Source of the DNA: a bacterium
Lineage (GTDB): Bacteria; Patescibacteriota; Minisyncoccia; Phycocordibacterales; CAIZLB01
NCBI GenBank assembly: GCA_037127815.1
Contig: JBAXXP010000002.1
Location: 105,490 to 142,942, forward strand
Reading direction: 5' to 3'
Length of the DNA: 37,453 bases
Part shown: piece by piece, positions 318 through 16,141 of the stretch
Position numbering within the stretch: the stretch's first letter is position 1
How the letters are laid out: every line of letters starts with the position of its first letter
Position numbers and translations under genes: made by a program
The notes under the pieces: model-generated
Told to the model about the DNA's origin: nothing
The model's database searches: none
What the model saw: only the letters and a program-made list of their open reading frames with translations

Positions 318-3300
318 TTATCTCTCCTGAGTATCCCCTAAGCTAGAACACTTAGAAGTTAGAATGGCGGTAGCGTTAGATTTTTTTACTACACCATTAG
401 AATCTACACCATTATCAAAGTCCACACTACAAGACAAAGTATGAGTACCAATATTTTTTGGAAGATCTTCAAACCCCTTTCCCCCATTTACTGTATTAGA
501 CAAAGACACACTTATTCCATCAATTGAGCATGCTTTTACAACAATTCCTGTGTAGGTTTTTTCATCTGACATAACAATAGTAGGATCTATTTGTCCAAAA
601 TATGCACATTTTTTAGTTGTTTCATTTGCCCATGGCGGATTTGATCCAAATATCATACCGCTCTTTATGTTCAAACTATCACCCAACTTAGGACAAGTTG
701 GCGTAATATTATTTACCCAGGTTTGATCTCCCTTAAGATTTCCAGAATATATTGCTCTAACACCAAACGAGATATTTGTATTATTTAGATACTGAGAAAT
801 ATCTACAGTTGTACCTGTTATAGTTTTATGTACTGACGTTAAATCAGTTTTATTTTTAACTTCAAAATCATAACTTATAGCATTTGGAACAGCATTCCAA
901 GATAGGTTTGGAGATACACAATAGAACAATGCTTGGACCTTAGGTTTATCTGAGACATTTATAGTAACAGGTACCCAAGCTGATGAGGCTCCACCAGCAG
1001 ATTCCGTAGTTTTGACTCTAAAGGTGGTAGTTCCTTTTGTACTCCATGTGTTTGATGCCTGAACTGAAACACCCGGAAGTACAGCTGTGCTTGTAGACAC
1101 TTTGGCACCATCATTATTCCAGTCAAATGTATATATTAATTTAGTTTCTACAGCAGCCTGAGCAAAAACTTTTTTGAAAGAAAAAATTATTGATGCAAGA
1201 AATGAAGTATTTTCTTTTTTTGCAACAGGATTTAAATGTGATACAGCTGTGTATATTGCAGGTACTCCAAGGGTTACATCAGTAGGGCCGGTGATGGTTG
1301 GAGCTGAGGGAGTTGGTGGAGTAAGTGTACATTTAAAATTACCACTTACAATCTCGGTACTCCTATCATCAGTAGAAGACCTGGTATTGATCCACCAAAC
1401 ATATGAATGTCCGGGTACAGTATTAAATGAATAACTAGACCCAGGCACAGATTCATTAAATAAGTCTGGAATATTTGTTCCGTAAACTGCACCGGGATGT
1501 AAGGTTGTATCAACAGCTCTGAAATATATATTTCTATAATCAGATGCATTTGTCCAAGAAAAATTAGCTGTTCCACCATTTGCTGAACAGGAGGAGGTAG
1601 CGTTTGTTGGTGGTGCGGGATGAGGGGGACATACAAAGCTACTACCAACCGCAGGGCTCCAAAAATCAGTACCGTACTCCCTGGTGTGAATCCACCATTT
1701 GTAGGAATGACCAAGTACCGCAGTAAATGAGTAGGATGATCCCTTTATTGATTCCTTATATAAACTTTGGTTTGTTCCAGTCGGGTCAAGGGTCATATCA
1801 ACCGCTCGAAAATATACAGTGTCATAGCCAGTTGCGTTTTTCCAACTAAAGTTAGCGGTAGACCCACCAGTATTAGTTGAACAACTTCCACTATATAACT
1901 CAGGTTTTGGTGGAGCTATAGCCACCGCAATACCCCAACCATTTGAGCACCCTATGTAAGAAGCATAATTAACGACTAAGTAATTGTCCCAACTAGCAGT
2001 ATATGAATATAATGTCCCAAACGCACTACTATAATTAAACGAAGTATTGCCTGAATAATAAGCAATAAAAATATCACAAGCAATTCTAGTGAATTCAAAA
2101 CCGTCATAGTTCCCCTCATTATCGTAGAAAAATTTATCACCTACACTACCACACATTCCAGCAACATTTTTATACGCTATTGCCTTTTTAATATTAAAAA
2201 TACTTAATAATTTCTGCATAAGCAGCGGTGGCGTATGAGAAACTTCATTTCTAGGCTTAAGAAATCCTGCTTTTATTTTTTCTTTAAACTGTTCTACTAA
2301 ATCTTTGTATGGCTGATAATTTAGTAAATTATTAAATTTACCACCCGCATTTTTATCAAGAGTAAGAAATAATATATTCAAATCATTCACTGGATCCTTA
2401 CTTACATCCATTGCAATTTTTAAGCTAGTCACAGCTTCCTCCTTTTTATTATTCTTAGTATAGAAAATAGCCTCCTTCAAATCTGCATGACTAATTATCA
2501 AACTCCTAACTCCTTGCATCAAACCAATGTCAACTAGAGCTGCCTTTTTCTGAACCTCATAAGCTTGAATAGTTTTTTCTATATTTCCTTCTTTTGCATA
2601 AACATCAGCAATTAATCCTAATGCATATGAAAGATTTGGATAAATACTAATTGCCTTATCTAAAAATTCTAATGCTTTTGTATTATCCCCCTTCTTTATA
2701 TACACATTTCCCATGACAGCATAGGCTTGGGGATAAGTGGGGTCTGCAGATATTGAACTAGATGCATAATCAAAAGCCATTTTTAAAGAACTCGTAGATG
2801 TTGAACCGATTTCAATAAGACTTAGGTTATAATATGCTTCTGCTTTTACCCTTGCGTTATCGACAGAATTAGCCACTGTAAGGAAATTTATTTTAGCATC
2901 ATTTATTTTTGCCTGTCTAATATATAGTCTTCCAAGATTCATTTTTACGTCTAAGTTTGTTGAATCCAAACTATCAGCCTTAATATAATCTATCTCCGCT
3001 TTTGCAAGGTCTCCAGACAGATCATAGGCATGACCTCTATGACGTATTGCATCTACATTATTTCCATCTAAGGCGAGAGCTCTATTATACGATTCTATTG
3101 CACCTTTAAAATCACCCATGATTTCATCAGCATACCCAAGAGCAATATAACCCTTTATATTATTTGAATCCATTTTCAAAACCTGTTTTGCATAATCAAG
3201 TGCCTTTTGACCATACTCATTTTCTTTATACTCAAGACTTCCTCTTTGAGCCCAAGAAATAGAAAGAGCTAATAGTGTAGATGTGTCATTTGGATTTTTC

Positions 3301-3488
3301 TTCAAGGACTGATCTAACAAATCTATAGCCTTACCTAGATCGCCATTTTTGAAGGCAGTATCAACATCCAAAGAAATCACATTAAAAGCGGTTGTTCGTA
3401 CTTTATTTTTATTGTAAAAATATACACCTCCTCCTACCAAAACTAGCAATAATAAAATTAGACTGAATATTATAATTTTCTTTTTCAC
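318..3488 (-). CDS. Large membrane-anchored TPR and Ig-like repeat surface protein (protein A)
   Basis: 1056 residues. An N-terminal signal anchor (MKKK followed by a hydrophobic helix to about residue 25) should place the rest outside the cytoplasm. Residues ~35-370 are tetratricopeptide repeats (for example the segment ALGYADEIMGDFKGAIESYN), expected to form a protein-binding solenoid. Two tandem ~95-residue modules follow (about 530-725), each with NFSW, YFRAVD, SSYSF, GHSY and WWI/NTR. Next is an Ig/PKD-like domain from ~730 carrying an inserted hydrophobic segment ending in VFAQ, then a Fn3-like stretch and a C-terminal domain (~955-1056) with four cysteines also present in proteins B and C. 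The start is GTG, chosen because an extended -10 (TGATATAAT) ends exactly 6 nt before it. No enzyme motif is seen. A role as an external scaffold or adhesin is inference. Confidence 0.85.
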   Translation of the reverse strand: MKKKIIIFSLILLLLVLVGGGVYFYNKNKVRTTAFNVISLDVDTAFKNGDLGKAIDLLDQSLKKNPNDTSTLLALSISWAQRGSLEYKENEYGQKALDYAKQVLKMDSNNIKGYIALGYADEIMGDFKGAIESYNRALALDGNNVDAIRHRGHAYDLSGDLAKAEIDYIKADSLDSTNLDVKMNLGRLYIRQAKINDAKINFLTVANSVDNARVKAEAYYNLSLIEIGSTSTSSLKMAFDYASSSISADPTYPQAYAVMGNVYIKKGDNTKALEFLDKAISIYPNLSYALGLIADVYAKEGNIEKTIQAYEVQKKAALVDIGLMQGVRSLIISHADLKEAIFYTKNNKKEEAVTSLKIAMDVSKDPVNDLNILFLTLDKNAGGKFNNLLNYQPYKDLVEQFKEKIKAGFLKPRNEVSHTPPLLMQKLLSIFNIKKAIAYKNVAGMCGSVGDKFFYDNEGNYDGFEFTRIACDIFIAYYSGNTSFNYSSAFGTLYSYTASWDNYLVVNYASYIGCSNGWGIAVAIAPPKPELYSGSCSTNTGGSTANFSWKNATGYDTVYFRAVDMTLDPTGTNQSLYKESIKGSSYSFTAVLGHSYKWWIHTREYGTDFWSPAVGSSFVCPPHPAPPTNATSSCSANGGTANFSWTNASDYRNIYFRAVDTTLHPGAVYGTNIPDLFNESVPGSSYSFNTVPGHSYVWWINTRSSTDDRSTEIVSGNFKCTLTPPTPSAPTITGPTDVTLGVPAIYTAVSHLNPVAKKENTSFLASIIFSFKKVFAQAAVETKLIYTFDWNNDGAKVSTSTAVLPGVSVQASNTWSTKGTTTFRVKTTESAGGASSAWVPVTINVSDKPKVQALFYCVSPNLSWNAVPNAISYDFEVKNKTDLTSVHKTITGTTVDISQYLNNTNISFGVRAIYSGNLKGDQTWVNNITPTCPKLGDSLNIKSGMIFGSNPPWANETTKKCAYFGQIDPTIVMSDEKTYTGIVVKACSIDGISVSLSNTVNGGKGFEDLPKNIGTHTLSCSVDFDNGVDSNGVVKKSNATAILTSKCSSLGDTQER

Positions 3489-4734: not shown

Positions 4735-5799
4735 TTATTTCTTTCCCATTGCAAGCTTCAAAACATGGCCAAGAAACTCATGCGCCTTGACCCCAACTGA
4801 GCCAAGAGACTTGAATAATGTAGCTTCTTCTTGAAGTGATGGCTGGGTATTAACCTCGAGCAAATAGACACCTCTTTTTGGATGAATTAGAAAATCGAAA
4901 GTTCCATAATGTCTTAGGTTAAATGACTCCTTAACGCTTCTCATAGCATTCTCAATAATTCCCTTTTCTTCCTCTGTTATCATAGCAGGAGCCTCATAAT
5001 TGTAAATTCCTGAAGTTTTTGAAGCCCAATCAAAGTGCCCAGTTCCTGTACCTATATTTGATAACTCCCCATCATTATTTAAAACACCTGATGTTGAAGT
5101 TTTTTCATGTCTAACCTGAACAGGTACTGTATTGTACAAATCTTGTCCTCTAAAGTCTTCAATGAATCCTGAAATAATTTCTTTTCCAGTTAAATACTCT
5201 TCAACCACAATTTCCTCACTAAAGCCTCTTGTGTGCTCAAGGGCTTTCATTAATTCTGTAAAATTATGCGCGATAGAAATCCCCAAAGATGATCCAGAAC
5301 TTCTAGGTTTAATAATTACAGGCATTGGAAAACTTTTGAATAAGTCATGAGCAACTGGTTCAACGTCTTCATCTAATTTTATATTTACCTCTTTATAAAA
5401 TGGAGATTTAATTCCAAGATTCTTAAAATTCTCTTTTGCGAGTGCCTTATTTAAAGCCATTGCAGACCCCAAACCTTTTGTTCCAGTATATGGTTTTGCA
5501 AAAGAATCCAAAACACTTTGCAATCTTCCGTCTCCACCATACGCTCCATGCATTGCATTAAATAGTACATCTACCCTGCTAACTGCCTCCTCAGGCGACA
5601 CAGGAGCTCCTGAAATATGCCATACCCCATCTCTATCGACAAAAATATCAACAGCATTATATTCCTCACACAAAGGCTCTTTTTTTAGCAAATTCAAAAT
5701 ATGCTTACCTGTAGTTAGAGATATATCATATTCCTGTGAAGGTCCACCTCTCAGTACTCCAACGGTAGTTTTCTTTCCAGATTTAAATCCAATTGTCAT
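4735..5799 (-). CDS. ddl: D-alanine-D-alanine ligase
   Basis: 354 residues, ATP-grasp family; makes the D-Ala-D-Ala dipeptide for peptidoglycan in the cytoplasm. Visible family landmarks in order: an N-terminal GGPSQEYDIS block, NAMHGAYGGDGRLQSVLD, YTGTKGLGSAMALNKALAKE, the ATP-binding VIIKPRSSGSSLGIS, VVEEYLTGKEI, and the metal-binding C-terminal FDFLIHPKRGVYLLEVNTQP. The last motif reads NTQPSLQEEATLF where the family usually has NTxPGxTxxSLxP, so the substrate-closing segment is divergent. The start at 5799 fits the family N-terminus and is preceded by TGCTATACT with a 6-nt gap; an ATG 48 bp upstream would lie beyond this promoter. The S11 D,D-carboxypeptidase at 27026 acts on the same dipeptide later in the pathway. 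Confidence 0.95.
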   Translation of the reverse strand: MTIGFKSGKKTTVGVLRGGPSQEYDISLTTGKHILNLLKKEPLCEEYNAVDIFVDRDGVWHISGAPVSPEEAVSRVDVLFNAMHGAYGGDGRLQSVLDSFAKPYTGTKGLGSAMALNKALAKENFKNLGIKSPFYKEVNIKLDEDVEPVAHDLFKSFPMPVIIKPRSSGSSLGISIAHNFTELMKALEHTRGFSEEIVVEEYLTGKEIISGFIEDFRGQDLYNTVPVQVRHEKTSTSGVLNNDGELSNIGTGTGHFDWASKTSGIYNYEAPAMITEEEKGIIENAMRSVKESFNLRHYGTFDFLIHPKRGVYLLEVNTQPSLQEEATLFKSLGSVGVKAHEFLGHVLKLAMGKK

Positions 5800-5805
5800 A
5801 TATGA

Positions 5806-5814
5806 AGTATAGCA
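5806..5814 (-). promoter_or_regulatory. Extended -10 promoter of ddl, leaderless type
   Basis: The minus strand reads TGCTATACT, then TCATAT, then ATG. The 6-nt gap predicts a transcript starting at the ATG. Confidence 0.65.
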
Positions 5815-5848
5815 CGATGAAAGCGAGTGGAATGTGGCCTTATCCACA

Positions 5849-5890
5849 AAAAAACAGCGCGTGCATTTAAATGCGCGCGCTGTTTTTATA
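5849..5890 (-). terminator. Terminator of protein B gene
   Basis: A long hairpin: AAAAACAGCGCG on one side and CGCGCTGTTTTT on the other, joined through a self-complementary GCATTTAAATGC centre, with T-runs on both strands. It starts 20 bp past the stop at 5910. Confidence 0.85.
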
Positions 5891-5909
5891 TTTCCCTACT
5901 ATTTAAATA

Positions 5910-8900
5910 TTAATTCTCTATTGTCACGGGCACTCTAGAACACCTAAATGACTTTGTTATAGGTTCTGATCTAAGAACTTTTGGAGGAGTACCATTACCT
6001 TTGATTATAGCCTGACAAGTAATCTTGTGCTGGCCAACAATTGCGCTAATTTTACTAGTCACAGATGGAATTGTCTTATTATCCATTGTACAAACAGTGT
6101 ACTTTGGAGCATTTGAATTGATTACTAAATCTACAGAACATTTTGATGTAACCTCGTTTGCATAAGGATTCAATAGCTTAGCAGTCATAGTCAACTCTGG
6201 TGGATTACATGCAGCAACTGTGAATAATGGGTCATCTGCTAGCTGTATACCGTCAATATGAGGACATTTATCCAAGCTTACTTCACCATCACATGACCTA
6301 GCACAAATCTTTTTGTCTGAACAGTACTTAAGCCCAACTCCACATCCAACTGAACAGGTCGCTACAGTACTTGACGCTCCAGAACATGACCATCCCCATT
6401 GTTTTGCTGATGAATTTGTAGCACTTACTGGATTAATAGCAAAAGATCCAGCAACAAGATTCTGTCCCTCTGGACAAAGAAGATTGCTCTTAGATTGATC
6501 AAGTGATCCACCTTCACCAATAACAGGTCTAAGACAACCAGCTGGGCAGCTGCCGCCTGGACAGTTAACGCTAATTGTATCGCATTTAGCTTCATCAATA
6601 ATTACATTATTTAATAGCACCTGTAGTGTCGCCACCTTGTCTCCCTGGGCTGTGTATTTTAATGTTCCTGATTTTTTATCTGAAACAACTGGATCTGCAG
6701 ATGCATCTCCAAAATCCCAGAAGTAACTCAAAAGTGACGGGTCACCAGAAGTTGCATAGGATGCTTCATACTCAAGAGGTTGGTTTACTGGAATATTACT
6801 AATTGCACCACCTGTGCTATTTTTGAATGCGCAACTCAATAGATCTGTACATTTTTCTTGACCATCACCCAATTGTTCAAATGTCCATTTTGATTGAGCT
6901 GCTGCACAAGTAGTCTTGTTGCTTGCACAAGCTGGTATTGCAGGAGATACCTGATTTTCATTAAAATCTCCAGGATAATTTACCCCCTGATAATAACAAA
7001 GATTTGAGTCCATGAGACCAAGTTCAGTTATGTCTACTGATGATCCAGAATAGTCAGTTTTTTTACCACTATACCAACTTGAAATTGTTACTGTACAAGC
7101 ACCATCATATGAACCATTTATGTAATTTGCTTTTCTTCCATAGTTTGAAATCATTTTTTGTTTTGCTTGACCCTTTCTAAAATCAAATAGCTTATATCTT
7201 GTATTTATCCATGCAGTACCATTTGCATCTACAACCACATAAAAAGGAGCTGTTGCATTTGCAGCTTGAATATCCGGGGACTTCTCACAAACGTTAACAG
7301 AAAGACTTACAGTACCTCCACTTTTTTTATTATTACCACTTGACCCAACAGAAGCGGCGTTTGTATATGTAGATACACTATTTGAAAAAGACGTATGCTT
7401 TGGATTTGCACACATTACTAGGCTACTTAATACGGTTGGAGTTTTAAACATAACATCAACTTCACTCAATGGTATATTTCTACAAGAAGTTACACCAGCC
7501 TTTGTCTTTAACTTGTAACCAACCTCTTGTATTTTTACTTGAGCAGTTGTGAATTTTGAATCATGACCAGAAAACTGACTTGTCGCAGTAATGGTATCTC
7601 CACCATCATATGTAACAACATGCTTATTTGTTTTATATGAATATGGAATGTATGAAGCCTGATCTTTTCTGCCATAAACAAATTCAGTGTAAGCGTATTC
7701 CTTATCAGTCCAATTTGAATTCATAAGGTCGGTTACTATATAAAAAGCATCGCCTCTGACAATGTCAGGTATTTCATTTTTTATATTTAATGCAACACTG
7801 CCTCCCGCATTGGATGTGGATGTTGTAACAGCCTTTCCGATTGACGTTATAGATCCTCCACTAACTGGAGTTGAATCAAACGTACAACCACCAAGAGTTT
7901 TCTTACAACTCCAAGTACCTAAATTACCCTTATCACATTGTGTTTTTCCCTCTGTAAATGAAGTATCACACGATGGAATAATATCTGTAGAATCACTCAC
8001 GGGAATCACTGCCCCCGCTATCTGATTCCAAGGCACAGCAACCACAATTGGCTGAGTTACTTTTTTAATAACATATGTATCAATTGCACCATTTTTTAAG
8101 GCTACATAAAATGTAAAATTATACACGCCTGGCGTAGTTGGAGCTGTATACATAGTGGAAGCAGAAATTTGCTTCGAAGCACTAAATGTCATTTTACCAA
8201 TTGAAATATCAGCTAAGGACCAGTTATTCCAATTATCACCAGCTGGTGGTAATAAATAATATAGATCTCCAGCGCTCTCCTTTTTGTTCATTGCAAATCC
8301 CCCTTTGGTTATATATGTCATTGGATCTGCATTAAAATTTACAGGGAAGGATCCACCTGGACTATAAATTGCAATATCACCAGGTAATGGAGATGACATA
8401 CTTGTAATAATATCTAAACCCAAAAATGATGACAACTTGGGATCAACAATATACTGGGTTGTTCTACTACGAGACATAAATCCAGCTGAAGTAGTAGTCA
8501 CTTGTGCACCAGCAGAAGCAACTGTCTCAACACTGTAGGCCTTAGTATCACCATATGATAAAGCAGAAAACATCATCAAAGCTATAACTACCGCTATTTT
8601 TTTATCCATGAATTTTCTTTTCTTTAATAGAGTAATACCCAAAATTAGTAGTATAAGAGCGATAATCTCTCCTATTATATATATCATAGGATATGACTGC
8701 TTAACTGGATACATTTCATTGACCTCTTTTTCTGATGGTAAATTATTTGAGTACGTACCTAGTATTTTTCCTGAAGCACCTTTTATTTCTGTACTAATAT
8801 ATAAATTTTCTGCGTCTATTTTAGCAACCAATGGTAAATTAAAATTACCAATTTCATTACTCAAATCTATAGGCAATGATTCATCGGCAACAACAGCGTC

Positions 8901-9941
8901 ACTTTCATCTGTAACAATAACGTGTACTGTTGACGATTTCAGTTCAGAAGATATATCAGCACCACTTTCTGGTTCAAAAATTTCATAATCGAAAACTAAA
9001 TTGAATTTACTATTTTTTGATGGAGACAAAACGTCAGAATTTACAGATTTTAAATTAATCAATAATCCATCAATTCTGTAATCAACCTTAATTGAATTCG
9101 CAACTTGAGTTTGTTGGGTACCTTCTGAAGACTGCGAGGAAAAAGATATTTTTGCAATATATTCCGCAGGACTGAAATCTGCAGTTGGAATTTCTACAGT
9201 GTATTTTCCGTTTTCATTTTTTAATTGACTGAGATCAAAAGATTTTGAAATAGGGCTTCCAACATTATTAGATGAAATATCTAGCATTATATTTGTCTTT
9301 AAATCCATTGGTAAAACAAATGAAACAACTAATTTATCACTAGCTCCAATTACAAGCCCATAATCTTTGATGTAAGATACGCCATTTTTAGACACAGCAA
9401 CATCCGATGGTTCAATTATTCCAGCTACAGGCTCTCCTTGTATATATATTTTTTGAACAGCGCTTGCAATTAATGTACCATCCTTTAAGTAAATTTTAAC
9501 TGATAAATATCTATCCCCGTATATTGTATTAGGTAGTGAATAATTGAAGGAAACATCTCGCTTTGAATTTGCTTTAATGTAAGACAATGGCTTTTTAGCA
9601 GCATCTACATCAATATCTTTTCCAAGCTTATCTACAATATTAATTGAATAAAATGTATCTGAAACATCTGTATTACCAATGTTTGAAAGTGTAAAAGTAC
9701 CAGATACATTCTTGCCAACGTAAAACTCTTTTTCAGTTAAGTTAATTGGAAAAACATACAACTGTGCAGCTGCAATATTTTCAGTTTTAACTGACGCAGG
9801 GTTAACTGGCGAAGATTGCGCATGAGTTGAGTTTGTACCAAGGGCGACAATAATAAATAAATAACAAAAAACAATAAATAATGGGCTACGATTGTTTTTT
9901 TTACTCGCATTTACACCAAATATTTTTAAAGAAAATTTCAT
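5910..9941 (-). CDS. Large two-part surface protein with internal second signal sequence (protein B)
   Basis: 1343 residues. Residues 1-41 form a signal peptide ending THA|Q. Ectodomain 1 (42 to ~420) is built of Ig-like beta domains (an opening like PINLTEKEFYVGKNVSGTF). A transmembrane helix at ~420-440 is followed by the basic stretch KKRKF and a second signal-like sequence starting at Met445 (MDKKIAVVIALMMFSALS, then GDTKAYS). Ectodomain 2 (~470-1343) contains several Cys-bearing modules, a PKD-like domain (YFWDFGDASADP) at ~1070, a cysteine-rich WGWSCSG / CSDKKIC segment and the four-Cys C-terminal domain. The same order occurs in protein C immediately upstream, so the two are tandem paralogues. 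No enzymatic motif. The start is supported by TGCTATAAT ending 6 nt before the ATG. A role in the cell envelope is inference; partners are unknown. Confidence 0.88.
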   Translation of the reverse strand: MKFSLKIFGVNASKKNNRSPLFIVFCYLFIIVALGTNSTHAQSSPVNPASVKTENIAAAQLYVFPINLTEKEFYVGKNVSGTFTLSNIGNTDVSDTFYSINIVDKLGKDIDVDAAKKPLSYIKANSKRDVSFNYSLPNTIYGDRYLSVKIYLKDGTLIASAVQKIYIQGEPVAGIIEPSDVAVSKNGVSYIKDYGLVIGASDKLVVSFVLPMDLKTNIMLDISSNNVGSPISKSFDLSQLKNENGKYTVEIPTADFSPAEYIAKISFSSQSSEGTQQTQVANSIKVDYRIDGLLINLKSVNSDVLSPSKNSKFNLVFDYEIFEPESGADISSELKSSTVHVIVTDESDAVVADESLPIDLSNEIGNFNLPLVAKIDAENLYISTEIKGASGKILGTYSNNLPSEKEVNEMYPVKQSYPMIYIIGEIIALILLILGITLLKKRKFMDKKIAVVIALMMFSALSYGDTKAYSVETVASAGAQVTTTSAGFMSRSRTTQYIVDPKLSSFLGLDIITSMSSPLPGDIAIYSPGGSFPVNFNADPMTYITKGGFAMNKKESAGDLYYLLPPAGDNWNNWSLADISIGKMTFSASKQISASTMYTAPTTPGVYNFTFYVALKNGAIDTYVIKKVTQPIVVAVPWNQIAGAVIPVSDSTDIIPSCDTSFTEGKTQCDKGNLGTWSCKKTLGGCTFDSTPVSGGSITSIGKAVTTSTSNAGGSVALNIKNEIPDIVRGDAFYIVTDLMNSNWTDKEYAYTEFVYGRKDQASYIPYSYKTNKHVVTYDGGDTITATSQFSGHDSKFTTAQVKIQEVGYKLKTKAGVTSCRNIPLSEVDVMFKTPTVLSSLVMCANPKHTSFSNSVSTYTNAASVGSSGNNKKSGGTVSLSVNVCEKSPDIQAANATAPFYVVVDANGTAWINTRYKLFDFRKGQAKQKMISNYGRKANYINGSYDGACTVTISSWYSGKKTDYSGSSVDITELGLMDSNLCYYQGVNYPGDFNENQVSPAIPACASNKTTCAAAQSKWTFEQLGDGQEKCTDLLSCAFKNSTGGAISNIPVNQPLEYEASYATSGDPSLLSYFWDFGDASADPVVSDKKSGTLKYTAQGDKVATLQVLLNNVIIDEAKCDTISVNCPGGSCPAGCLRPVIGEGGSLDQSKSNLLCPEGQNLVAGSFAINPVSATNSSAKQWGWSCSGASSTVATCSVGCGVGLKYCSDKKICARSCDGEVSLDKCPHIDGIQLADDPLFTVAACNPPELTMTAKLLNPYANEVTSKCSVDLVINSNAPKYTVCTMDNKTIPSVTSKISAIVGQHKITCQAIIKGNGTPPKVLRSEPITKSFRCSRVPVTIEN

Positions 9942-9947
9942 GTCTTA

Positions 9948-9956
9948 ATTATAGCA
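9948..9956 (-). promoter_or_regulatory. Extended -10 promoter of protein B gene, leaderless type
   Basis: The minus strand reads CTACC TGCTATAAT TAAGAC ATG. The same string from CTACC to TAAG precedes protein C, so the two paralogues are probably expressed alike. Confidence 0.7.
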
Positions 9957-9973
9957 GGTAGATAAGCAACGTC

Positions 9974-10022
9974 TATATTAAATACACTATTATGTGTATA
10001 ACATAATAGTGTATTTAATATA
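9974..10022. repeat. AT-rich 21-bp inverted repeat between proteins C and B
   Basis: The 21-nt arms 9974-9994 and 10002-10022 are perfectly complementary around a 7-nt loop (TGTATAA). It lies 16 bp past the stop of protein C and about 18 bp upstream of the -10 of protein B. No T-run follows on the minus strand, so it is not a textbook terminator. It could be a transcript 3' end, an mRNA-stability stem or an operator. Confidence 0.7.
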
Positions 10023-10037
10023 TAGATTATTTTTTGA

Positions 10038-13000
10038 TTACTTCTCTATAACAGTTGGAACTTTTGAACACTTGGCTTCTACAGATGGATATGCTAATAC
10101 AATAGAGTTTGTATTAGAACTGCTTGCTGTAATCTCACAAGATAATTTATGCTTACCTATTCCAAACTGCAAGCTGGAAATTGAAAACGGTATCTCGGCC
10201 GTCACCTTGAATGGAGCCGCTCCTATTGGAACAGTTTTGCCATCTACAGAACAAGAATTAACAGTTATGTTTGTGTAAGTATCCAGAGGTATATCATTCT
10301 TTGCTGTTTTTATTGTTGCATCAATTTTTCCTGAGAAATTACATTTACCACTTATTTTTGCCCATGAAGGATTAGCTGAAAATGTCATACCATCCAGAAT
10401 TACAACATCAAGATCCGTATTAACAGGAGGTACTACAACAGTACACGAGGAACTATCGCGAATTGGAACTGTTGCTGATATTGTTAGTATATTACTTGGA
10501 GCAGACGATTTTGACGTATCTGGATCAGCAAAACTTGTTGGTCCATATGCATATAATTGATAACGATCTCCATTTGCAAAGTCTGTTCCAAGAGAAATAC
10601 TTGTTACAGAACCACTAATGACATCATTAATTATGGAATCATTCTTGTTCAAAGAATAAAAATTTGACAGTGCTCCGTCAGATCTATAGGTCTTATTCCA
10701 TGATAATGTTAGATTACCAGAACAAATTTTACTTGTTGACAAAGAAGGGGTTCCATAAGTGTAGTCTGCGGCTGGGTCGACAACAGTAATTGGAAATGTA
10801 GTCCATGGAGACTTTGAGTCAGTCAAAGTGTCCACTGCAGCAACCCTAATCTGTGTTGTCGTAGCTTCAGTCCAAATATGCGTTGATGATGCATGTGATC
10901 CATAAGCAAAATTGTCAGTTTGCCCTGGGCTCGCACCACCACCCCAATCAATCATATAATGAACAGTTTCCTCCGGTCCACTTTGCGCAAAAAGTTTCTT
11001 AATTCCAAATATTATTGACCCTAACATTGAGCTATTTGTGTCATTTTTTGCGACTTTTTTAGCAGGAGAAAACATCTCATATATATTTACATCACCAATA
11101 TTTACAGTTGATGATCCAGTAATAGTAGGAGCTGCTGGAGTATGATCAGCATCAACAGGTGTTATATTAACCTTGAGTCTATACGTAGCATTTTTAAAAA
11201 GTATATCTTCGGGGTAAAAATAATGTACATAGGAAGAAGTTGCTGCCCGAGGGTCGATGGACAGGTATCTATAATTATCCGAATCATAACATTTATTATC
11301 TAATGAACTGTAGTACGGTGCAGAATTAGGACAACCAACAACATTTTTATCAATAGCACTCTTAGAAAAGTACATGTATGGACAATTTGTATTATTTGGA
11401 ATACATACTGGTGCATTTTTTACAACATAAGTACTATAAGGATCCACAGCTTTATTAACCTCTTTGGTAGTCATCGCAAACAAAGGTACGCCGTTTGTCC
11501 TACATATTCCATTTGATCTTTCTGTATCGGTCTGCTCACCATAATATTGCCTTCCGTAAATTGGAGAATAGTAAATGAAAATTGATTTAGTTCCAGCTGC
11601 TGTTGGCGAACAAGTTGTCTGGTTAGAATCACATAACCAATTAGCTGCATCTAAATTTTTCAGAGGTGGCTGACTATATTGATTTAACGTTGTAGTTGAA
11701 AGAAGGGCTGATGGGTTACTATATCGATTAGAATCAAAAAAAACTGTATCTATGAATGATAATTTATGTTCAGGTGGGGTAACTGATGTTTGTACAAACT
11801 CATCAACATTTGGAAGTATAATGTCAGCTTCTCTAGGATTATAAATTGGGGGTACACTACACCAGGTACTGATTCTGTATGTTAATTCGTCATGAGAAAG
11901 TATATTCATACGCCTACTATTTAAACTTGTATCCTTATATTGATACAGGCCTCCAATTTTACATTCAGAATAAGGAGGAAATGGGCCATCAGGAAAACCC
12001 CTATCTCTATCATAATCCCATGCCTCTGATAATACTGTAATTGGTTTTATACATCTTCCCGCAGAATCTTCTCCGTTATAATATGAAACAAGAGAATAAC
12101 CACTTGGACAATATACTTTTACGCTTGTACTGTTAATTGGCGCTGAACCAACATGAACTAATTCACTAGGAACATTAGCAACATAATCGGGATATATATC
12201 CACAAGATCTGTATTATAACCGTATGAGTTAGTAAAGTTGATACCATTAGAAGAGTACGAAGACATAACTCTTCTAAGGTGATACGGCCAATCACCACTT
12301 GGGCTATAAATTATATCTAAATAATGACCCAGTTGAAGAACTGGTGGCCTACTTAAGCCAACGGGATCCCACTGCCAAACAGAGTAATCTTGAGGAGATC
12401 GTTCATGAATCTCATTGTTTTTATCATATGACACAGCATCCATTCTGTCTCTTGTTAAGATATAGTTTTTATCAGAACAAACATTATTAGTAGAATTAGC
12501 GTCAGTCACCCAACTAGCACTATTAGGACTTGATGGGTAATTTGAAAATGATAAATTGTCACTTGAAGACGCCTTATCAAAATTAAAATGAATTTTATCT
12601 CCAATTGATATAGAGGGTATTGTTATTGAATCATCCAATACTCTTCCGTAATCATCATAAATAACAGAAGGATACCTAACTACAAGACTACTCCAATTTG
12701 AATTTTTTGGTATTTCTCCAATAGCAGAAAAGGTACTATATTTACCAAGCAATGAAGGCCATGTTTCTCTATCTACCATTTGATAAAACTGCTTATTGTC
12801 AAGGAAATTATCTTGTTGGCTAAAGTAGGTGTGTCCTAAATACTGGGTAGTAAAAAGCTGGTAATTTATCCCTGTTGAAATCTGAACATCGTTATAGGCC
12901 CAATCTAAATGCCTAACAATAGGCGGTTCAAGGTGGACTCCCTTCTCTTCCTCATAATAAAAAGCATTAACAACACTAGTAATCTTATGCCCCCAACAAG

Positions 13001-14693
13001 AACCCTTAACACCAACATCTCTCCACCCAGGAGACTCCGGTGGTACATTAAATGTAATAGACGTTTTAGATGAATTAATAGTAAAATTATTAACCATCTT
13101 ATAACCCATCAGCACAGACTCAATATTATCAAAATCAGAACCAGTGATTGTGACAGTGATTGGGCTACCTGCTGTAGTCAGGCCCGTTTTATAACCATAA
13201 TTAGGAGATATATTTGTAATATTTGGATTACATGCATCTGCATATACTTTTGTATTAGTTGAAAAAAGTATCAAAAGAACTAAAAGAAACATCATATTCC
13301 TGTTACTTCTATTTTTTTTAATTTTTAGCAAGAACATTTGTATATTTTTGAATTTTGTTACTAATAAGAATAATATCAAGATACAAAAAATGACAAATAC
13401 AACATTTAACCACATTTTAGTTGAGACTGGTCCCTTATCAAACATACTACAGATTGAGGGATCGATAATATTACAATCATATGGAATATAAACTTCATCG
13501 GTTAATTTTTCACCACTGTATAAAGTCGCATGAATTTTGAAATTTCTATAACCAGATTTTGGACTAAATTCTTGCGACACAGATTGTGAAGTATTTTTTA
13601 TTTTTCCATTATATTGATAAGACATTACAGGATTAAGACTATTCACATCCAAAATTTCAAGATTCAATTTTACATCAGATTGAGTGTCAATACTTGATGT
13701 ATTACGAAAGCATGCAATTATTTTGCTCTTCTGACCTGACCCTAACGGAAAAGTATTTGATGATATAAAATTAAATCTTGGCATCAAATCAACACCTCTA
13801 ACAAAATTAACTCCTAAAATGGATTTACTATCCTTATATTTCAAAACTGATTCTACGTAATATATTGAAGCAGAAGTGTCATTTACAACAACAGGGATAT
13901 TAATTGTCTTTCCGGCTTCAATTATTAAAATATGCTTCTTTGTACTAATTTTATTTTCTGGCGACTGAGAGTCATATTTGAAAATATTAATCTCTGCATT
14001 CACAGCCTGTCTTGCTTTGGTAGTATTTGTAACTGGCACAGATATAGTTACAGTTCCTGTTGCGCTTTCAAAATCCGATTGTAACTGAGTTGTCAAATAT
14101 TTTTTATTATTTATCTTTATACCTATTTTATTGAAAAATACACCTGTATTCTGCTGGCTCTTAACATTTAGATTTACAATATCACCTGGTGTGTTAGTAC
14201 TTAAGTTTCCGCCTAAACTAAATCTATTTCCTGATATGAAGTATGTAGTTAATTTAAAGTCTCCACCGATAGAGTAGGCTGGTATAGCCCAAGTAAAGTC
14301 TACTGGTATTTTTTGACCAACCTTTAGAGTAATGTTATCTTTGATAACAAAAGTATCTAAAATATCAGGCCCGTTACCATCATCCTTAATTTTTGGCCTT
14401 ATTATTTTTGCATATAATTTACCTTCAACTACTGGAAACTTATTATCGTTCTGTATATATCCAACAAAATCAATACTGGAGCCGGCTGATGCCCCGATGA
14501 TTTTTGGATGCATACTAATCGAAACTCCATTGCTATTATATTCTGAGCACAATGCCTCCGTAGTTGTTGCTGTAAAAGTATTTGATGATGCCGCATGCGC
14601 TATGTGTGAAATTTCTTGATTTAAAATTAACACGGAAAATATGGAGGCGCAAAATAAAGAAAACGCAATTGCCTTTTTATAGGAAGAATTCAT
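10038..14693 (-). CDS. Giant two-part surface protein, paralogue of protein B (protein C)
   Basis: 1551 residues. A signal peptide (1-34) ends IAHA|A. Ectodomain 1 (~35-425) resembles that of B (compare DFTWAIPAYSIGGDFKLT in C with SFNYSLPNTIYGDRYLSV in B). A transmembrane helix at ~428-448 (WLNVVFVIFCILILFLLV) is followed by a Lys-rich loop and a second signal-like sequence at Met467 ending KVYA|DA at about 485. An IPT/TIG-like domain follows (ITNISPNYGYKTGLTTAG, ~490-580), then a long region without recognisable family, an Ig/PKD-like domain at ~1205-1320 carrying the inserted segment SIIFGIKKLFAQ, a Fn3-like domain and the four-Cys C-terminal domain (~1440-1551) ending KCSKVPTVIEK. Proteins B and A share that ending domain. 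The start is fixed by TGCTATAAT 6 nt upstream. Function is not known; envelope display is inference. Confidence 0.88.
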   Translation of the reverse strand: MNSSYKKAIAFSLFCASIFSVLILNQEISHIAHAASSNTFTATTTEALCSEYNSNGVSISMHPKIIGASAGSSIDFVGYIQNDNKFPVVEGKLYAKIIRPKIKDDGNGPDILDTFVIKDNITLKVGQKIPVDFTWAIPAYSIGGDFKLTTYFISGNRFSLGGNLSTNTPGDIVNLNVKSQQNTGVFFNKIGIKINNKKYLTTQLQSDFESATGTVTISVPVTNTTKARQAVNAEINIFKYDSQSPENKISTKKHILIIEAGKTINIPVVVNDTSASIYYVESVLKYKDSKSILGVNFVRGVDLMPRFNFISSNTFPLGSGQKSKIIACFRNTSSIDTQSDVKLNLEILDVNSLNPVMSYQYNGKIKNTSQSVSQEFSPKSGYRNFKIHATLYSGEKLTDEVYIPYDCNIIDPSICSMFDKGPVSTKMWLNVVFVIFCILILFLLVTKFKNIQMFLLKIKKNRSNRNMMFLLVLLILFSTNTKVYADACNPNITNISPNYGYKTGLTTAGSPITVTITGSDFDNIESVLMGYKMVNNFTINSSKTSITFNVPPESPGWRDVGVKGSCWGHKITSVVNAFYYEEEKGVHLEPPIVRHLDWAYNDVQISTGINYQLFTTQYLGHTYFSQQDNFLDNKQFYQMVDRETWPSLLGKYSTFSAIGEIPKNSNWSSLVVRYPSVIYDDYGRVLDDSITIPSISIGDKIHFNFDKASSSDNLSFSNYPSSPNSASWVTDANSTNNVCSDKNYILTRDRMDAVSYDKNNEIHERSPQDYSVWQWDPVGLSRPPVLQLGHYLDIIYSPSGDWPYHLRRVMSSYSSNGINFTNSYGYNTDLVDIYPDYVANVPSELVHVGSAPINSTSVKVYCPSGYSLVSYYNGEDSAGRCIKPITVLSEAWDYDRDRGFPDGPFPPYSECKIGGLYQYKDTSLNSRRMNILSHDELTYRISTWCSVPPIYNPREADIILPNVDEFVQTSVTPPEHKLSFIDTVFFDSNRYSNPSALLSTTTLNQYSQPPLKNLDAANWLCDSNQTTCSPTAAGTKSIFIYYSPIYGRQYYGEQTDTERSNGICRTNGVPLFAMTTKEVNKAVDPYSTYVVKNAPVCIPNNTNCPYMYFSKSAIDKNVVGCPNSAPYYSSLDNKCYDSDNYRYLSIDPRAATSSYVHYFYPEDILFKNATYRLKVNITPVDADHTPAAPTITGSSTVNIGDVNIYEMFSPAKKVAKNDTNSSMLGSIIFGIKKLFAQSGPEETVHYMIDWGGGASPGQTDNFAYGSHASSTHIWTEATTTQIRVAAVDTLTDSKSPWTTFPITVVDPAADYTYGTPSLSTSKICSGNLTLSWNKTYRSDGALSNFYSLNKNDSIINDVISGSVTSISLGTDFANGDRYQLYAYGPTSFADPDTSKSSAPSNILTISATVPIRDSSSCTVVVPPVNTDLDVVILDGMTFSANPSWAKISGKCNFSGKIDATIKTAKNDIPLDTYTNITVNSCSVDGKTVPIGAAPFKVTAEIPFSISSLQFGIGKHKLSCEITASSSNTNSIVLAYPSVEAKCSKVPTVIEK

Positions 14694-14699
14694 GACTTA

Positions 14700-14708
14700 A
14701 TTATAGCA
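14700..14708 (-). promoter_or_regulatory. Extended -10 promoter of protein C gene, leaderless type
   Basis: The minus strand reads CTACC TGCTATAAT TAAGTC ATG, nearly identical to the promoter of protein B. Confidence 0.7.
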
Positions 14709-14727
14709 GGTAGGTTAATATCCGTCC

Positions 14728-14750
14728 ACATAAAATTCAATATTTTGTGT
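14728..14750. repeat. Short AT-rich hairpin between uvrC and protein C
   Basis: ACATAAAAT pairs with ATTTTGTGT (one G-T pair) around a 5-nt loop, 18 bp past the uvrC stop. No clear T-run on the minus strand. It occupies the same position relative to the downstream promoter as the larger 9974-10022 repeat. Confidence 0.35.
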
Positions 14751-14767
14751 ATAAAACTTCTGGCTAC

Positions 14768-16141
14768 TTATTCAAGAAAACTCTTTGACCTTCTGTTTTT
14801 ATGAAAAGTGATTGCAAATCTGTGTGCCTCCGCATTTATTTTTATTAGTTGATCTTTTAGAATTTTTTTATCAAAACTCTCCCAGTTCTTTTCAATCAAA
14901 AACAATACATCTTTGGCCTTATGTTTATCATCTTTTACAATACTGCAAAATAGCGGTAAGCTTAGTGTTTGTGCTCCTGCGGGATGCGCTAGAACTTGTG
15001 AAATTTTTGACTCAGACATTGATTCACTCCAAGACTTATATCCACGTTTCAATTGAACTTCATTTCCATCAAGTACAACAATATTGGGAGTTTGCCAGTC
15101 TGAATGTTTAATCCGTCTATTAATCACTTCCTCAAGCGCCCCGGCATCATTTGCTTTATCAAAGTTATTTATAATAAATTTTCTATATTGATTATTTGCA
15201 AATCCACCATTCTCCATAACAACCATTACACCCACCATTTCTTTTCCTGACATATGAGCTATGTCATATGCTTCAATTCTTATATTTTTTACTAGACCTT
15301 TCTCGTCCGTCGTAGACCCACCAATCATCACATCAGTTAAATTTGGGTTTTTAATCAGGGAAACATCTTGAATATGATTTAATGCAAAAATTGTTCTTTT
15401 TATTTTTCCAGCTTTTTCAAACTCTTTTTCCTTTGCAAGAGATAGCATCTGTTTTTCAAGACTCTTAATAAGTGCAGGTTTGCGACCTTCAAAAAATAAT
15501 TTAATATTTTTTATTTCCATAGCATAATCCTTTTTGGAAATCTCACCTGAGCAAACACCTGGACATAGACCTATTGTTCTATTAAAACAAGGCTTGGATT
15601 TGTTTGATATTAATCCATCCTTGGGGACAATTTTATTTTCATCATATGGCGTACATTTATCTCTAAAAGGAAATATTTTTCTAATTAGCCTAAGAGCCTC
15701 TTTTAATTCTCCACCATATGGAAAAGGCCCAAACACTTCCTTGTATTTTGTCTCCTTATCTTGCTCAAGACTCCTTCCTCTAATAACTAGAATTCTTGGA
15801 AAGTCCTCCTCCGTTATAACAACATAATTATAACTTTTATTATCCTTATCTTTTGTATTATATTTTGGTTGATTCTCTTTTATGTATTGAGCTTCTAAAA
15901 GTAAAGCCTCTAGAACAGAATCAGTTTTTATAAATTCAATTTTATCTGAAATGGTAACCATATCAACAAGTAGACGTCCTCTTGTTTTTATTAAATCATC
16001 AGAGAAGTAGCTTCTAACACGTTGTTTTAGGCTCGTTGCCTTTCCAACATATAGCAAATTCTTCCCATGCTTAAAAAGATAGACTCCTGGAGAATCCGGT
16101 AGTTTTGGCAAAAATGATTTTTGAAAGTCTTTTTTGTTCAT
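14768..16141 (-). CDS. uvrC: UvrABC excinuclease subunit C, short form lacking the C-terminal HhH domain
   Basis: 457 residues; makes the two incisions flanking a DNA lesion after UvrA/UvrB recognition. The N-terminal GIY-YIG nuclease domain is clear (DSPGVYLFKHGKNLLYVGKA, residues ~16-35). A Cys cluster follows (CTPY, CFNRTIGLCPGVCSG), then a UVR motif at ~225-260 (LEKQMLSLAKEKEFEKAGKI) for contact with UvrB. The RNase H-like 5'-incision domain has its acidic residues in YDIAHMSGKEMVGV, NDAGALEEVINRR and VVLDGNEVQL, and the late His in EAHRFAITFHK. The protein stops just after that motif, where family members of about 600 residues continue into the tandem HhH DNA-binding domain. Both nuclease centres look intact, so it is probably active with altered DNA grip. 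uvrA and uvrB lie upstream on the same strand. Confidence 0.95.
   Translation of the reverse strand: MNKKDFQKSFLPKLPDSPGVYLFKHGKNLLYVGKATSLKQRVRSYFSDDLIKTRGRLLVDMVTISDKIEFIKTDSVLEALLLEAQYIKENQPKYNTKDKDNKSYNYVVITEEDFPRILVIRGRSLEQDKETKYKEVFGPFPYGGELKEALRLIRKIFPFRDKCTPYDENKIVPKDGLISNKSKPCFNRTIGLCPGVCSGEISKKDYAMEIKNIKLFFEGRKPALIKSLEKQMLSLAKEKEFEKAGKIKRTIFALNHIQDVSLIKNPNLTDVMIGGSTTDEKGLVKNIRIEAYDIAHMSGKEMVGVMVVMENGGFANNQYRKFIINNFDKANDAGALEEVINRRIKHSDWQTPNIVVLDGNEVQLKRGYKSWSESMSESKISQVLAHPAGAQTLSLPLFCSIVKDDKHKAKDVLFLIEKNWESFDKKILKDQLIKINAEAHRFAITFHKNRRSKSFLE

Follow-up and report, generated by a model that had tools for sequence, protein, structure and literature searches.

Tandem two-in-one surface protein precursors of a patescibacterium, probably processed at an internal signal peptide

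In Bradyrhizobium japonicum, the cytochrome b/c1 precursor (fbcH) contains an internal signal peptide, and its cleavage yields two partner proteins. To our knowledge, bacterial polyproteins processed at an internal signal peptide have rarely been described, and we know of no indication that the fbcH fusion is recurrent. Cleavage inside a longer chain is also found in Staphylococcus aureus, where the signal peptidase I SpsB cuts the polytopic LtaS at an internal site and frees its extracellular domain (PMC10865820). As for surface proteins that come in pairs, the WxL and WxLIP proteins of Firmicutes are encoded by linked genes, and the Ig-fold protein with its C-terminal transmembrane helix has been proposed to hold the secreted surface protein (PMC10599100). 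Ig-like and PKD surface proteins that carry signal peptides have been reported as highly expressed in methanogen-attached Paceibacterales and proposed to function in host adhesion (PMC10936435).

Here, we describe proteins B and C, encoded by neighbouring genes in a stretch of 37,453 nucleotides (the window) from a patescibacterial genome of 842 kb in 9 contigs. We consider it highly probable that each of them is a polyprotein precursor, processed at an internal signal, for a surface system of two proteins in Paceibacteria-type Patescibacteria. An earlier, sequence-only reading of the window had assigned one order of parts to both proteins (signal peptide, Ig-like ectodomain, transmembrane helix, basic loop, second signal-like helix, second ectodomain, four-Cys domain), and this order was borne out, with both open reading frames intact on the minus strand (Table 1). 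The loop between the first transmembrane helix (TM1) and the second hydrophobic segment has charges of +6/-1 in B and +7/-0 in C, and the hydrophobic cores of the second segments have 13 (B) and 11 (C) residues versus 21 (B) and 15 (C) for the transmembrane helices. Structure prediction, which that reading had proposed as a check, was performed on the N-half of C with 48 homologs; AlphaFold2 gave a chain of beta-sandwich domains and one long helix (pLDDT 86.7, pTM 0.78), and the second segment was modelled as a separate helix at residues 467-487. When 49 N-half members were examined by hmmscan, Pfam matches to Mannosidase_ig and MG2 were found among them. Neither B nor C had a match above the curated cut-off to a Pfam or NCBIfam family covering the whole pair; the weak matches below it included Ig, PKD, CARDB and TIG, the last of these in the second ectodomain of C. 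The two genes had also been said to have promoter sequence in common, and TACCTGCTATAATTAAG[A/T]C indeed lies immediately upstream of the ATG codon of each. Since the -10 box sits 6 nt before the start, the mRNAs of B and C are probably leaderless. Across the genome, the extended -10 box at this distance (TGNTATAAT-N6-ATG) occurs 22 times versus 2 times for a reversed control pattern, and this count suggests that leaderless transcription is common in the source genome.

Table 1. Position of the features of proteins A, B and C in the window.
Feature	Position	Strand	Basis
Protein A: N-terminal anchor, TPR repeats, ectodomain with the family C-terminal cassette and tail (TQER)	318..3488	-	
Protein B, probable fused two-in-one precursor, 1343 aa	5910..9941	-	ORF; layout common to C and paralogs
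B second ectodomain, residues 471-1343: PKD-like region and C-terminal Cys domain, end VPVTIEN	5913..8531	-	
B predicted internal signal peptide, Met445 to Ser470 (TKAYS470; site between AYS and VE)	8532..8609	-	Hydropathy; Met survey
B transmembrane helix 1, residues 419-439	8625..8687	-	Hydropathy
B N-terminal signal peptide, residues 1-41 (site between NSTHA41 and QSS)	9819..9941	-	Hydropathy and AxA site
B putative promoter, TACCTGCTATAATTAAGAC abutting ATG (leaderless)	9942..9961	-	
Protein C, probable fused two-in-one precursor, 1551 aa	10038..14693	-	ORF; homologs
C C-terminal tail VPTVIEK, P-x-[FWVI]-x-E-x type	10041..10061	-	
C second ectodomain, residues 486-1551, homologous to separate downstream genes of split relatives	10041..13238	-	psiblast
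C predicted internal signal peptide, Met467 to Ala485 (TKVYA485; site between VYA and DA)	13239..13295	-	PWM score 6.8; helix in model
C transmembrane helix 1, about residues 427-448	13350..13415	-	Hydropathy, AlphaFold2 model
C N-half ectodomain, tandem Ig/macroglobulin-like beta-sandwich domains	13416..14591	-	AlphaFold2 and Foldseek; Pfam in members
C N-terminal signal peptide, residues 1-34 (site between HIAHA34 and ASS)	14592..14693	-	Hydropathy, AxA site
C putative promoter, TACCTGCTATAATTAAGTC abutting ATG (leaderless)	14694..14713	-	

Searches with B and C identified four more fused paralogs in the source genome, three of them C-like (L010, L011 and L012) and one B-like (L013). These four bring the total to six; they follow the layout of B and C, and their internal sites are VEA, TEA, SEA and ATA. 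Of 397 genomes of the order, 37 were positive with a profile of the N-half, and so were, apart from the source genome itself, 2 of 380 genomes sampled across the phylum. The first wider contig scan gave no matches with full-length B as the query, but the N-half profile did find 53 named loci in the wider contig search, and the named relatives belong mostly to Parcubacteria/Paceibacterota and other Patescibacteria MAGs. The open frames of the relatives are of two classes. In the fused class the frame runs through both halves, whereas in the split class the halves are adjacent or overlapping genes, the N-half ending a few residues past its transmembrane helix and the next gene opening with an ordinary signal peptide. 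For example, the N-half gene of the genome G006 has its stop (TAA) after the transmembrane helix and the basic tail; the gene that follows is in the same frame and opens with MKKYFCLVLILLNLYLPILMVSKIEA (site before AS), and a fused B-like protein is encoded elsewhere in this genome. The two genes overlap in G042, where they are in different frames, and in many other relatives. Non-redundant C-type N-half loci comprise 33 fused loci, 23 split loci with the N-half first, 10 split loci with the second half first, 14 loci without a recognised partner (although in some of these a signal-peptide gene does follow downstream) and 4 truncated loci. Hence, relatives in which the halves are separate genes, for which the sequence-only reading had recommended a search, exist in quantity, and their second halves have a normal N-terminal signal peptide. 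These split relatives support its proposal that one chain may yield two surface proteins in a fixed ratio. The 10 loci of reverse order, in which the N-half gene is preceded by the second-half gene, include L116, L117, L118, L122, L124 and L126. None of these 10 pairs, which may represent few independent lineages, is fused, as would be expected if a fusion required a cytoplasmic loop ahead of the second signal.

The second halves of the two forms could be linked directly. By blastp, 17 of the 23 split partner genes matched fused second halves, and a psiblast profile built from the fused second half of one relative (L113) recovered nearly all second halves, split or fused, with C at E 4.7e-22 and protein A at 2.2e-43; judging from these matches, split and fused forms have homologous second halves. 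When the fused/split label was traced by parsimony on trees of the N-half, 8 changes were required with 48 rows (bootstrap 6-9) and 11 with 67 rows, and the well-supported (starred) branches alone force 2 and 3 changes, respectively. Because of these label changes, fusion or fission has probably happened repeatedly. Most of the genomes are MAGs, and sequencing or assembly errors that joined two genes, named beforehand as a possible refutation, could in principle mimic a fusion. However, besides the six paralogs in the source genome, about 30 fused proteins are known from some 25 to 30 other genomes of unrelated assemblies; such a joining error is already refuted by this number of independent fused copies, and we give it practically no weight. 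A fused homologue lacking the internal signal, the other finding that would have spoken against the proposal, did not occur among the fused homologues.

Whether the second hydrophobic segment behaves as a signal peptide was assessed with a signal-peptidase matrix (PWM) trained solely on 50 N-terminal signals, which replaced a plain AxA motif count and was applied with transmembrane and shuffle controls. The median score of the internal segments was 4.9 (n=27), versus -1.2 for TM1 of the same proteins (p 1e-5), -2.6 for the terminal transmembrane helices of split N-halves (p 4e-8), -0.2 for polytopic transmembrane helices (p 2e-6) and 1.3 for shuffled c-regions (p 2e-5). The own signals of the split partners had a median of 6.4 and did not differ from the internal segments (p 0.39). 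Low scores were obtained for B (-1.4), L013 and L085, partly due to core-boundary calls. With sites chosen by eye, the residue at -1 of the internal site was A in 36, G in 1 and S in 1 of 38 fused proteins, and the plain motif [AVSTLI]xA was counted in 24 of 27 segments versus 19.6 +/- 2.1 in shuffles, which is weakly above the shuffles and makes it a poor discriminator. The suggestion that the second segment resembles a new signal peptide is thus supported by matrix scores that are like those of true signals and above those of transmembrane helices. A signal-peptidase-type site is present at the internal segment, both products are known from separate genes that have signals of their own, and the source genome has one gene for signal peptidase I. 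From these sequence features, the internal signal is very probably cut, releasing two partner proteins in a 1:1 ratio.

The same segment could also be an uncleaved transmembrane helix, in which case each protein would remain a single chain, held in the membrane by a hairpin of two helices and with both ectodomains tethered. The topology fits this arrangement equally well, the loop before the internal segment (basic in 26 of 26 scored proteins) fits both readings, and certain internal cores are long (25 residues in L092, 22 in L106 and 23 in L013). Against the hairpin, however, internal cores have a mean length of 16.3 residues versus 19.3 for TM1, the internal segments have conserved signal-peptidase sites that score as real signals do, and the separate homologous proteins bear ordinary cleavable signals; we therefore regard the hairpin as unlikely. 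A still less probable reading, to which we give very little weight, is that the second half is a separate product, translated from an internal start at the Met ahead of the internal segment. The Met with which this segment had been said to start is present in B (Met445) and C (Met467/468) but is not conserved, being found in 11 of 37 fused proteins (GTG and TTG starts lie outside this count) and missing from 26, and a Shine-Dalgarno-like stretch precedes it in 2 fused proteins only. In addition, every fused protein has a frame that stays open through both halves. By these counts, internal initiation at the Met was rejected as a general route. The Met residues of B and C may be left over from the start codon of a gene that was once separate.

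A representative second half, that of L113, was also modelled (pLDDT 83.2, pTM 0.60). A beta-rich first module is followed by a PKD domain (Foldseek match 4xed, TMt 0.88), a Cys-rich linker of low confidence and an Ig-like domain at the C-terminus, and the seven final residues lie beyond the last strand. Since the Foldseek matches were generic only (Ig, macroglobulin and PKD), no function was assigned from the fold. The second halves end in a tail of the type P-x-[FWVI]-x-E-x, and the penultimate Glu was found in 55 of 72 non-redundant C-termini versus 19 of 290 other ORFs; P-x-[FWVILYT]-x-E-x fitted 40/72 and 5/290, respectively. In L132, L161, L125, L145 and L152, two to five more residues come after the Glu motif (WKEVAPGR, NVKEVAP), a variant of the tail. 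Tail-bearing secreted-like proteins in the genome sample were all family members, except one 191-aa protein that is probably a chance match, and a role of the tail as a genome-wide sorting signal was rejected, as it is confined to the family in this sample. We speculate that the tail might be a docking signal.

Protein A in the window and a second protein of the source genome, L178, are TPR proteins, and the latter likewise consists of an N-terminal anchor, TPR repeats and an ectodomain ending in the family tail. The C-terminal cassette of protein A (window 376-1307) is 86% identical in DNA to L012:5598-6529, on another contig, over 937 nt and 84% identical to L011 over 631 nt, which points to possible module shuffling or gene conversion among paralogs. 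A highly conserved short insert, S-x-LASxIFAIKK-V/L-FAQ, is located in a loop of a PKD-like domain in proteins of the genus (about residues 1221-1240 of C) and is also present in A, L011, L012, L036, L037, L038, L039 and L041 and absent from L010; this insert resembles either a mini signal peptide or an amphipathic membrane-binding helix. Within the genus, family genes of related genomes are found near uvrC and D-Ala-D-Ala ligase (window 4735-16141; L036, L037, L038 and L039), and the N-half of L101 adjoins uvrC too.

Taken together, the following mechanism can be proposed for B and C. The first signal peptide would export the Ig-like N-half, TM1 would halt transfer so that the basic loop stays cytoplasmic, and the internal signal peptide would restart export, now of the second half. 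We infer that signal peptidase I would then cut after Ser470 in B and Ala485 in C, that the second half would bind the N-half, perhaps via its C-terminal Ig-like domain and PxPhixEx tail, and that the pair would have a role in surface contact or adhesion. The products would be a membrane-anchored N-half and a soluble second half, made 1:1 at the same membrane site. Mutual binding of the two halves would be predicted from the split/fused pattern. As the same gene pair appears to have become fused several times, it offers a natural split/fused series for the handling of internal signals by signal peptidase. Candidate Phyla Radiation bacteria have a poorly known contact surface, for which the pair is a strong candidate. 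A wider interpretation is offered tentatively, as a possibility that we favour less than not: an undescribed two-component surface system of Patescibacteria, with an Ig-domain receptor anchored in the membrane and an adhesin-like secreted partner that docks via the conserved C-terminal PxPhixEx tail; this system may have repeatedly evolved into signal-peptidase-processed polyproteins and expanded, in one ultra-small genome, into several shuffling paralogs and TPR proteins with the same C-terminal cassette.

Compared with the known systems, B and C have likenesses to each and differ from each. Like fbcH, each would be one precursor with an internal signal peptide, for which cleavage is predicted here, but fbcH belongs to a respiratory complex rather than to surface proteins and is unrelated in sequence. 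With LtaS they would have in common a cut, again predicted, after a membrane segment within a longer chain, whereas in LtaS a single enzyme domain follows a polytopic domain, there is no pair of exported proteins, and the sequence is also unrelated. The Ig-like and PKD proteins of Paceibacterales come from the same broad group and, compared by description only, resemble B and C in signal peptides and folds, but an internal signal or polyprotein was not found in the part of that account considered (PMC10936435). In WxL/WxLIP (DUF916-DUF3324) pairs the two proteins are encoded by separate genes, and their domains are missing here: hmmscan of 49 N-half members gave no WxLIP (DUF916/DUF3324) Pfam domains, and the second halves gave no WxL domain and matched PKD and Ig-like families only. 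Nevertheless, the N-halves have the WxLIP-type architecture of a signal peptide, tandem Ig-like domains and a C-terminal transmembrane helix with a basic tail, and the plan of a linked Ig-fold transmembrane protein and secreted surface protein is the same (PMC10599100). In conclusion, the two-protein system of B and C is not a member of the WxL/WxLIP surface pairs, but it is these pairs that it works most like.
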